Origin: Verrucomicrobiaceae bacterium
Lineage (GTDB): Bacteria > Verrucomicrobiota > Verrucomicrobiia > Verrucomicrobiales > Verrucomicrobiaceae
Reading direction: 5' to 3'
Assembly: GCA_016795485.1 (NCBI GenBank)
Contig: JAEUHM010000021.1
Span: forward strand, 62,001-126,000
Length of the DNA: 64,000 bases
Each line of letters starts with the position of its first letter. Position 1 is the stretch's first letter. Shown in pieces: positions 7,734 through 64,000 of the stretch. The notes beneath the pieces were generated by a model. The model was not told the DNA's origin. It saw only the letters and a program-made list of their open reading frames with translations, and searched no databases. The translations under genes and the position numbers were made by a program.

Positions 7734-8413
7734 AGAATGGGGTCGTCGAGTAAAGCTTTGGCATCGCGGTGCAGTCGTTCACACATGAGTGCGGCCAACT
7801 CTGCCTGAGGGTGAAACACATCGTAGTAACCACGCACCTGCCCGGCACGGTCGATAAGCACGATGCGCAAGTCGTGCTCGAACATGTCAGCCGGATTCAG
7901 CCGCTTGCCCGGCGGGATGAAGCGGCAAGGATTGAGGCGCAACTCACGCGTCATGAAACCAACCAGCGGATCACGAGGCCCAGTGACGAACCACCAGTGA
8001 TCACCCGGCTTCACTCCCAGAGCCTCGGCATAGCTTGCGAGCGTCACTGGCGTGTCCCGTTCAGGCACCACGGCCACCGACAGTTGGTGGAAATCAGAAC
8101 GCGCTCCGAAGTCGTGATGTAGCTTCTGCATTTGCGCAACCACCGCAGCGCACCCATGAGGACAAACGGTGTAAAGATAGGCACAGGCTACAACCTTGCC
8201 CTTCAAGTCCGAAAAGTTCACGTATTGTCCGCTGCGTTCCTGGGCCTGGAGGTCAGCTTGCAGGGTTCCGTAGACTGCAAGTTTAGGAGGCTTCGGTGTC
8301 ATCACTTCGGTGGCGTAACGACCGAATGCGAAGCTCGCCAGCACCAGTAGAACAACAACGGCGAGAATCCACAGCACCTGCTTGTTCGGATCAACTTGAG
8401 CATGTTCACTCAT
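7730..8413 (-). CDS. SCO1/SenC-family copper chaperone, membrane anchored
   Basis: A 227-residue protein with one transmembrane anchor (about residues 13-32) and a thioredoxin-like domain. The copper and thiol motif CPHGC is at 84-88, and the conserved histidine of the family lies in FEHDLRIVLID in the last third. SCO proteins insert copper into the CuA centre of cytochrome c oxidase or act as thiol-disulfide reductases. The protein has the usual length for the family. It overlaps both neighbours by 4 bp (ATGA), lying between a c-type cytochrome and the HMA protein. No oxidase subunits are visible in this window, so the client is unknown. Confidence 0.9.
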   Translation of the reverse strand: MSEHAQVDPNKQVLWILAVVVLLVLASFAFGRYATEVMTPKPPKLAVYGTLQADLQAQERSGQYVNFSDLKGKVVACAYLYTVCPHGCAAVVAQMQKLHHDFGARSDFHQLSVAVVPERDTPVTLASYAEALGVKPGDHWWFVTGPRDPLVGFMTRELRLNPCRFIPPGKRLNPADMFEHDLRIVLIDRAGQVRGYYDVFHPQAELAALMCERLHRDAKALLDDPIL

Positions 8414-58642: not shown

Positions 58643-58691
58643 AGATTGCCGACTCTAACGAGGCGCACAGAGCGCGCCAGTGTTTCGTCTA

Positions 58692-58737
58692 TTTTTGCTG
58701 AGTTTTCGGCAAAATTTTTGCTGAGTTTTCGGCAAAA
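58692..58737. repeat. Tandem 23-bp repeat, two exact copies, upstream of gltA
   Basis: Copies at 58692-58714 and 58715-58737 are identical and adjoining. Each unit begins TTTTTGCTGAG and ends TTTTCGGCAAAA (with a one-base overlap in this description), so its ends, TTTTGC and GCAAAA, make an inverted repeat. The pair could be two operator sites or a hairpin in the gltA leader. Confidence 0.85.
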
Positions 58738-62132: not shown

Positions 62133-63026
62133 CTAAGCCGCTGTTTTGCCCTTCTGCTTGTTACTGATGCGATGCTCCTGATCACCAAGCGCAAGCACAT
62201 GGTTATCCGGCACACTCTCCATGAGGAAAACGCTAGCGCCGATCGTGCTGCCATGCCCGATGATCGTATCCCCGCCCACGATGGTAGCATTCGCGTAAAC
62301 CGTGACGTGATTTCCAAGCGTGGGATGACGCTTCTTGCCCCGCAAGGCCTGCCCAGCGGCCAGAGATCGTGCCACAAGGCCCACACCCTGGTACAGCTTC
62401 ACGTGGTGACCGATCTCGCACGTCTCCCCCACCACCACCCCCGTGCCGTGGTCGATGAAGAAGTGCGATCCGATCGTCGCACCCGGATGAATGTCGATCC
62501 CCGTGCGGCCATGAGCCCACTCAGTCATCATCCGCGGAATCAAGGGCACCCCCAGATTGTAGAGCACATGCGCGGTCCTTTGGATCGCTATCGCCTCCAG
62601 CCCAGGGTAAGCCAGCACCACCTCCTCCAGTGAGCCCGCCGCCGGATCACCCTCAAAGGAAGCCTCCACGTCCGTATGCACCAACTCCCGCACCGCAGGC
62701 AGTTGACGGAGGAAAGAGCACACCAGATGGCTAGCCTCAGCGGTGTGGTCACCATTCCCGTTTCTTAGCCGCAGACTCCGCCGCACCTCGGTGCTCAACT
62801 TTTGGCGCGTAGTGGCCACCAGCTCATTCGTCAGCATCTCCAGCTCTCCGGTGGCCACCGCCTCCTCACTGAAGAACCCAGGGAACAGCAGATGAAGTAA
62901 ATCCTCCGCGATGGAGGCAATCGCCCGCTTGGACGGCAGGCTACCGCAGTCGAGGTGATTGATACCGCCGCGCGCACGATACGATTCCATGAGCGCGCTG
63001 ACGATTTCTTCCTGGTGGCAGTCCAT
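62133..63026 (-). CDS. cysE: Serine O-acetyltransferase
   Basis: The ATG at 63026 gives 297 residues; the frame is open upstream to a GTG at 63095. The N-terminal helical domain is followed by left-handed parallel beta-helix hexapeptide repeats: GIDIHPGATIGSHFFIDHG, GVVVGETCEIGHHVKLYQGV and TVYANATIVGGDTIIGHG. The DHGTGVVVGE segment is the CysE family core. It makes O-acetylserine for cysteine synthesis. The 22-bp array lies 220 bp upstream. Confidence 0.93.
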   Translation of the reverse strand: MDCHQEEIVSALMESYRARGGINHLDCGSLPSKRAIASIAEDLLHLLFPGFFSEEAVATGELEMLTNELVATTRQKLSTEVRRSLRLRNGNGDHTAEASHLVCSFLRQLPAVRELVHTDVEASFEGDPAAGSLEEVVLAYPGLEAIAIQRTAHVLYNLGVPLIPRMMTEWAHGRTGIDIHPGATIGSHFFIDHGTGVVVGETCEIGHHVKLYQGVGLVARSLAAGQALRGKKRHPTLGNHVTVYANATIVGGDTIIGHGSTIGASVFLMESVPDNHVLALGDQEHRISNKQKGKTAA

Positions 63027-63245: not shown

Positions 63246-63542
63246 GGGGTGACCCCAGCGGGAGCGCGGGGTCACTCCAAGCGATGCTCTAGGTGACCCA
63301 AAGAATCCGTTGGGGTCACCCCTACAACTCAATGGAGTCACTCCGAGCTCTGCCTGGAGTCACTCCAATAAACCGTAGGGGTCACCCCTGCGAGTCACTG
63401 GAGTCACTCCAAGAACGGAACGGAGTCACCCCGAGAGTTTACTGGAGTGACTCAAAGAACCGATTGGAGTCACCCCAAGACCCGACTGGGGTCACTCCAA
63501 TGAACGCATGGAGTCACCCCAATGACTTACCGGAGGCACCCC
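63246..63542. repeat. Array of fourteen 11-bp palindromes with an exact 22-bp period
   Basis: Palindromic units of type GGRGTCACYCC start at 63246, 63268, 63290 (degenerate), 63312, 63334, 63356, 63378, 63400, 63422, 63444, 63466, 63488, 63510 and 63532; every start is 22 bp from the last. A decayed fifteenth unit may lie near 63554. The 11-bp gaps vary but often look like AAGAAYCGNNT. A spacing of 22 bp puts all dyads on one DNA face. The array sits in the 748-bp gap between divergent cysE and the TIGR03803-like gene. Elsewhere in that gap I see only a TGGGTC/GACCCA hairpin at about 63605-63619. Confidence 0.9.
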
Positions 63543-63774
63543 AACGCTGTTCATGGGGGCCACATGTCACTCCGATGTGAGCCATACACGCCACGGCTGT
63601 AGCTTGGGTCTGTGACCCAGGAGGCGTAGGACTACATTCAAGCCCAAGGACAAAAAACCCCGCCCGCCTCCCGCTTACCACTTCAGGATTGACTTTCCCT
63701 GCCCAACAAGAAATCCTCGGCTTCTGACACACCCCATCTTGGGCGGCTTTGTGTGCGTCACCTCACTCACTCTC

Positions 63775-64000
63775 ATGATAAAGGCTCTAGTTCTCAATAC
63801 TCTGCTGATCGCTGTTACAGGAACGCTGCTGTTCTCGGTGTCAGCTCATGGGCAGAGCTTTGAGGTGCTGTTTTCGGATAATGAAGGTAGCCGCCCTCGC
63901 GCCGGACTGGTGCAAGGCAGTGATGGCAACTTCTATGGAACCACTGATGAAGGTGGGGAAAGCAACAATGGCACGGTGTTCAAAGTTACCGCTAGTGGCA
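63775..64000 (+). CDS. TIGR03803-like (choice-of-anchor) repeat protein, 3' end beyond the window
   Basis: An ATG at 63775 opens a frame that runs off the right edge (75 codons seen). A signal peptide (MIKALVLNTLLIAVTGTL, ending about AHGQ) is followed by the beginning of a repeat domain: GLVQGSDGNFYGTTDEGG then NNGTVFKVTASG. This GSDGxFYGTTxxGGxxxxGTVFKxT pattern is the Gloeobacter/Verrucomicrobia repeat (TIGR03803), usually present in many copies on exported proteins. It is the divergent neighbour of cysE across the 22-bp array. Confidence 0.8.
   Translation, partial: MIKALVLNTLLIAVTGTLLFSVSAHGQSFEVLFSDNEGSRPRAGLVQGSDGNFYGTTDEGGESNNGTVFKVTASG

Follow-up and report, generated by a model that had tools for sequence, protein, structure and literature searches.

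A 14-unit dyad array at an exact 22-bp period and its two-turn companions in a Verrucomicrobiaceae genome

The dyad array and its surroundings

In the window, by which we mean the whole stretch of 64,000 nucleotides that was analysed, an array of short dyads lies between two divergent genes, a cysE-like gene on the minus strand, whose start codon is about 220 bp away from it, and a repeat-protein gene on the plus strand, which begins at about the same distance of 220 bp. The features of interest are the following.

62133 to 63026, minus strand: gene for a CysE-like serine O-acetyltransferase (Pfam Hexapep, 24.9 bits, the curated cut-off of 27 not being reached)
63246 to 63542, no strand: dyad array of 14 units, consensus GGRGTSACYCC, with 11-bp linkers of loose consensus AAgaa..ga.t
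63290 to 63300, no strand: the most degenerate dyad, unit 3, TAGGTGACCCA, 8 of 11 positions matching, on the 22-bp grid
63311 to 63544, no strand: higher-order repetition of 44 bp and 88 bp in the array, seen by TRF and lag analysis
63775 to 64000, plus strand: start (ATG at 63775) of a gene that runs past the window; its product has 50-aa repeats and is putatively secreted

The genes nearest to the array, cysE-like, SprT-like, MFS and repeat-protein genes, are ordinary ones on both sides, and plasmid records contain no similar DNA. Neither a sigma-70-like promoter match in this setting nor an Rfam match to the array was found. The array falls between called genes and is non-coding; a coding repeat was discarded, since the 22-bp unit is not a multiple of 3. 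The repeat protein belongs to a recurrent family of the source genome, in which several genes carry coding repeats of 150 or 156 bp (50 or 52 aa): in addition to positions 63775-64000 of the window, they are found at L098:10902-12808 (150-bp repeat), L142:2472-4560, L151:19606-19952 and L152:800-1110, where L numbers denote the sequence stretches sampled. Elsewhere in the window (58691-58737), a perfect 23-bp tandem duplication, two copies of ATTTTTGCTGAGTTTTCGGCAAA, lies between citrate-synthase-like and ketol-acid-reductoisomerase-like genes.

The 14 units, each of 11 bp, start at 63246 + 22n, and each of the 14 slots of the 22-bp grid has its best dyad match at offset 0, which confirms the exact period, free of insertions and deletions, that had been described from the sequence; the slots flanking the array on either side contain nothing comparable to GGRGTSACYCC. 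The fit to this consensus is complete in 11 units, with one mismatch in two others and three mismatches in the last. Dyad words with a score of at least 10 number 18 in the window, against a mean of 4.3 and a maximum of 8 in shuffled 64-kb sequences.

The description of the units as palindromes holds in part: 11-bp dyads do recur, but the term is slightly too strong, because positions 3 and 9 vary independently, the pairs being G-C in 4 units, A-T in 4, A-C in 4 and G-T in 2, so that 6 of 14 units carry A-C or G-T (Fisher p=0.63, in a weak test with one informative pair and 14 units). The claim that the dyad is kept over the gap is borne out by the mean pairwise identity between units, 0.81 for the dyad and 0.37 for the linker, and by a similar contrast in other arrays. 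The gap was also rightly called variable but biased, since linker identity exceeds the 0.26 expected of random linkers (p=0.0005). Linker conservation is strongest next to the dyad, with AA following it, and part of the gap is therefore an extended core. The 44-bp and 88-bp repetition, in turn, is a trace of tandem duplication.

Two-turn arrays in the source genome and elsewhere

A genome-wide pattern search for the dyad, as had been proposed along with the original prediction, found it at two more intergenic places in the source genome (G000, its contigs numbered C): at C14:230941, the gap between two convergent genes is taken up by a run of ten units with a 22-bp step, and four dyads at 66-bp spacing lie at C2:103545-103753. 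The dyad thus occupies three unlinked intergenic sites. A search of 387 other genomes of the phylum was negative, none of them having three in-phase RGTSACY words.

These arrays are part of a larger population. Stretches of the source genome amounting to 1.30 Mb were sampled, and TRF together with a lag-match scan served to collect tandem arrays. Of the 21 intergenic ones, 19 have lags of 21, 22, 41, 42, 44, 65 or 66, the remaining two having a period of 14, and the scan found no two-turn arrays in shuffled DNA. Intergenic autocorrelation shows sharp peaks at 21, 42, 63, 84, 105 and 126 and at 22, 44, 66 and 132, with the lags beside them near background. A heptamer origin of the 21-bp arrays was rejected, as the genome gives no signal at lags 14, 28 and 35. 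The two-turn arrays fall into about 12 families of unrelated sequence, examples being CGCGTTACTCGACCTCGAACAT (22 bp), CTGGCCGGATGGAGCAAACGG (21 bp), TTTCCAATTGGAAA with its linker (21 bp) and CTGAACCTCGGAACGCCAATC (21 bp). Since the bins 21-22, 41-44 and 63-66 comprise 10 of the 56 lags in the range 15-70, chance clustering of some 12 independent families within them is very unlikely. The idea of a constraint on helical phase is supported more strongly than when it was put forward from the single array, as the intergenic arrays of the sampled genome share a two-turn period.

No word of 4-6 bases is common to the families, the best one occurring in 6 of 12 with a 2-fold enrichment. Neighbouring genes are oriented almost at random (5 divergent, 4 convergent and 10 co-directional pairs), and therefore show no regulatory bias. 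One family forms two 21-bp arrays about 3 kb apart on contig C4, with 28 units at L143:4156-4745 and 19 at 7741-8143; exact pattern search found no further copies in the source genome.

The window array has no ortholog in the genomes searched, being absent from 56 other relatives and from the 387 other phylum genomes. Six relatives of the same family, sampled for 1.2 Mb with the lag-match scan, contain 6 intergenic arrays, none at two-turn lags. Homologues of the CysE-like protein in relatives of the family and order are 54-74% identical to it, but the stretches examined around their genes, where recurrence of the array had been envisaged, contain no two-turn noncoding array, and a conserved cis element of cysE was discarded on this basis; the repeat matches seen there in two relatives (L071 and L072) have lags that are multiples of 3 and look coding. 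Absence from relatives, and membership among many arrays, had been named beforehand as circumstances weighing against a function, and both are found, yet the arrays are phased and not the unphased minisatellites then envisaged. Five genomes of the same family (G005, G006, G011, G012 and G031) carry arrays of the heptamer AGGCA(A/G)N, a repeat habit unlike that of the two-turn arrays.

When 84,980 species were scanned for a two-dyad pattern, 20 stretches came up, most with 2-5 units; most of these matches, having identical linkers and coming from unrelated taxa, are independent arrays or chance. One stretch (L040, RFVF01000134.1) comes from a metagenome-assembled genome (MAG, G433) labelled Proteobacteria, 'Proteobacteria bacterium WB5_2B_004', which appears to be verrucomicrobial, because its cysE is 56% identical to that of the window, the level seen in other families of the same verrucomicrobial order. 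In this MAG, GGRGTCACCCC, its linkers variable, and, in L224, GAGGGTCACCCTC recur every 22 bp, and AGGCARYTGCCT recurs every 21 bp; the arrays of L040 share the build of the window array. The 21-bp array is located as follows.

L040:7232-7460: 21-bp two-turn dyad array of the MAG 'Proteobacteria bacterium WB5_2B_004'

What is kept and what drifts

In each of the five dyad arrays tested, which come from two genomes, the units agree better in the dyad than in the linker. Besides the window array, the values are 0.95 against 0.52 in the 22-bp array of L040, up to 0.89 against 0.45 in L152, 0.79 and 0.94 against 0.59 in the 21-bp array of L040 and, weakly, 0.86 against 0.76 in L100. By column permutation, the dyad is significant in the window, L152, L159, both L040 arrays and L224, and not significant in the two-turn arrays L116, L118, L123, L153, L156 and L157; given how many arrays are without a significant dyad, the dyad is not general. 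A kept dyad with a drifting linker is the build of the window array, of L152 and, in part, of L159.

Phase is lost very rarely. Gapped alignment of each of 21 arrays to its consensus gave 883 substitutions against 17 alignment gaps, and these few gaps, mostly located in the most degenerate arrays, may be alignment noise. Indels commonly make up some 5-15% of changes in neutral bacterial DNA, which predicts more phase slips than are seen, and thus supports, without amounting to proof, a constraint on the two-turn spacing, detection being biased because an array that has slipped out of phase more easily escapes notice. That the two halves of the window dyad do not covary speaks against an RNA stem as well as against template-switching correction, and would suit half-sites that are contacted separately. 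Of the selection on a dimer-binding site and on helical phase suggested at the outset, the phase and the better conservation of the dyad are found, while the dimer-binding protein is something we infer.

A known repeat class, its origin and the alternatives

Subirana and Messeguer have described bacterial noncoding tandem repeats whose unit size is constant and whose sequence varies, with units of 20-23 nt in many groups and of 52 nt in Firmicutes; several families may occur in one genome, most species have none, and 20-21 nt was equated with two helical turns (PMC8161180). A protein polymerising on DNA at constant repeat size, or small RNAs, were proposed, the function being left open (PMC8161180). 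Many unexplained periodic repeats in prokaryotes were likewise reported with SPADE (PMC6344855). The window array very probably belongs to this class, of which it is an additional representative, the class being already described and poorly understood. Its unit is 22 bp, with 21, 22, 42 and 44 bp in the genome, in agreement with a constant size of 20-23 nt or its double; it is noncoding; about 12 families of the same size and unrelated sequence share one genome; and it is species-specific, relatives and phylum genomes searched being without it. A characteristic short word in all repeats of a species, a typical and not a defining trait, is missing: the 20-23-nt repeats of B. weihaiensis are reported to share TCGCGG, whereas the arrays of the source genome have no common signal word. 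They differ from the published descriptions also in being verrucomicrobial, and in that several combine a kept dyad with a drifting linker. Two-turn satellites are known from many bacterial groups; the source genome brings together some 12 unrelated families, including old, decayed arrays in which what is kept (phase and dyad core) can be told from what drifts (the linker), and this contrast makes the question of function testable.

The reading that we favour, with a probability of roughly 60%, is that of a two-turn noncoding satellite which grew by duplication, drifted under constraint on spacing and dyad, and may be bound by a protein. The array would have grown by local tandem duplication, as the 44-bp and 88-bp traces suggest, and would then have drifted under two constraints, one on the short core of the dyad, the other on the 22-bp spacing, which puts all units on one face of the helix. 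The most likely cause of these constraints would be a putative dimeric or polymerising DNA-binding protein, perhaps involved in nucleoid folding, which might bind once per unit and require the two-turn step; this mechanism is a tentative one, which may well prove wrong. As no word of 4-6 bases is common to the families, no single sequence-specific binder is implied, and the protein would have to read shape or phase, unless each family had its own binder.

The chief rival, in our judgement rather unlikely, is a neutral satellite, in which slippage or unequal exchange in a lineage prone to two-turn duplications, seeded by hairpin-forming dyad cores, would produce the arrays with no function at all; such seeding would account for the persistence of the cores. 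Duplication is indeed active, as seen in the 44/88-bp repetition and in the homogeneous arrays L103, L105 and L143, and the arrays are lineage-specific, unrelated in sequence, indifferent to gene orientation and, in some cases, devoid of dyads. However, decayed arrays hold their phase almost without gaps, five arrays from two genomes have linkers that drift around a conserved dyad, and template switching that corrects palindromes predicts covarying halves, which are not seen. To our knowledge, no slippage mechanism preferring exactly two turns has been described. An RNA element, transcribed arrays acting as chains of small hairpins or as small RNAs, we hold to be improbable. The folds of both strands of the array are much more stable than those of shuffled sequences (z -9 and -12), the fold is weakened somewhat when just the linkers are shuffled (z -2.1 for the minus strand of the window, -2.6 and -4.9 for L040), and 52-nt repeats are transcribed in B. 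coagulans (PMC8161180, PMC8625621). Yet the low free energy is largely due to the dyads alone, the linkers adding little in the window; the fold of L100 is more stable after linker shuffling (z +1.4 and +1.6); Rfam gives no match; and the stem, of 4-5 bp, shows no covariation at positions 3/9 and has an A-C mismatch in 4 of 14 units. An RNA stem for the window dyad was rejected on this missing covariation, a weak test with one informative pair and 14 units.

The array had also been likened to plasmid iterons, parS/centromere arrays or an operator array, here for the two neighbouring genes, and its position between divergent genes would suit the last of these. Iterons of some plasmids recur at 19-22-bp steps, and are, like the present units, direct repeats about two helical turns apart; they are read on one face of the DNA, as the present units would be. 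In contrast to them, the window array shows no sign of a replicon context, being one of many arrays of unrelated sequence dispersed in the chromosome, and no Rep3_N initiator (PF01051, the profile searched) was found in the 99.9% complete genome. Similar DNA is absent from the plasmid and phage collections searched, so that a phage or plasmid origin was discarded; the dyad recurs at two other unlinked intergenic sites, one between convergent genes; and relatives have no such array beside cysE. The comparison is thus not supported, and these readings are very improbable. The probability of a TIGR-like or CRISPR-like guide array, with 11-bp repeats and 11-bp spacers, is practically negligible, even though the repeats of TIGR arrays measure 8-12 nt and their spacers 9-12 nt (PMC12045711), short repeats thus alternating with variable stretches of similar size as in the window, and the CCA that follows many dyads and the TG that precedes them are reminiscent of box C and box D. 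Each of these two motifs is retained by just 9 of 14 units, the window has a single repeat type instead of alternating box C and box D repeats, its linkers are related to each other, and no Nop-domain protein (PF01798) was found in the source genome, with positive search controls; membership in TIGR-Tas, lacking a Nop-domain Tas protein, was accordingly rejected.

A further possibility, distinctly unlikely, is a sequence-indifferent DNA-packing system, which would read only the two-turn step and the local shape of the dyad and would coat many unrelated intergenic arrays of the source genome. Were this the case, selection would act on phase and symmetry, not on sequence.

Arrays of 22-bp period with a GTSAC core, many per genome, are also present in Nocardioidaceae (GTGAC arrays in L026, L027, L039, L221 and L222). 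They differ from the window array in that one sequence family per genome is found among those seen, and the linker is kept about as well as the core. In Nocardioides aequoreus and a Nocardioidaceae MAG, these arrays often form inverted pairs, a few tens of bp apart, and about 70 three-unit GTGAC matches are found per genome.
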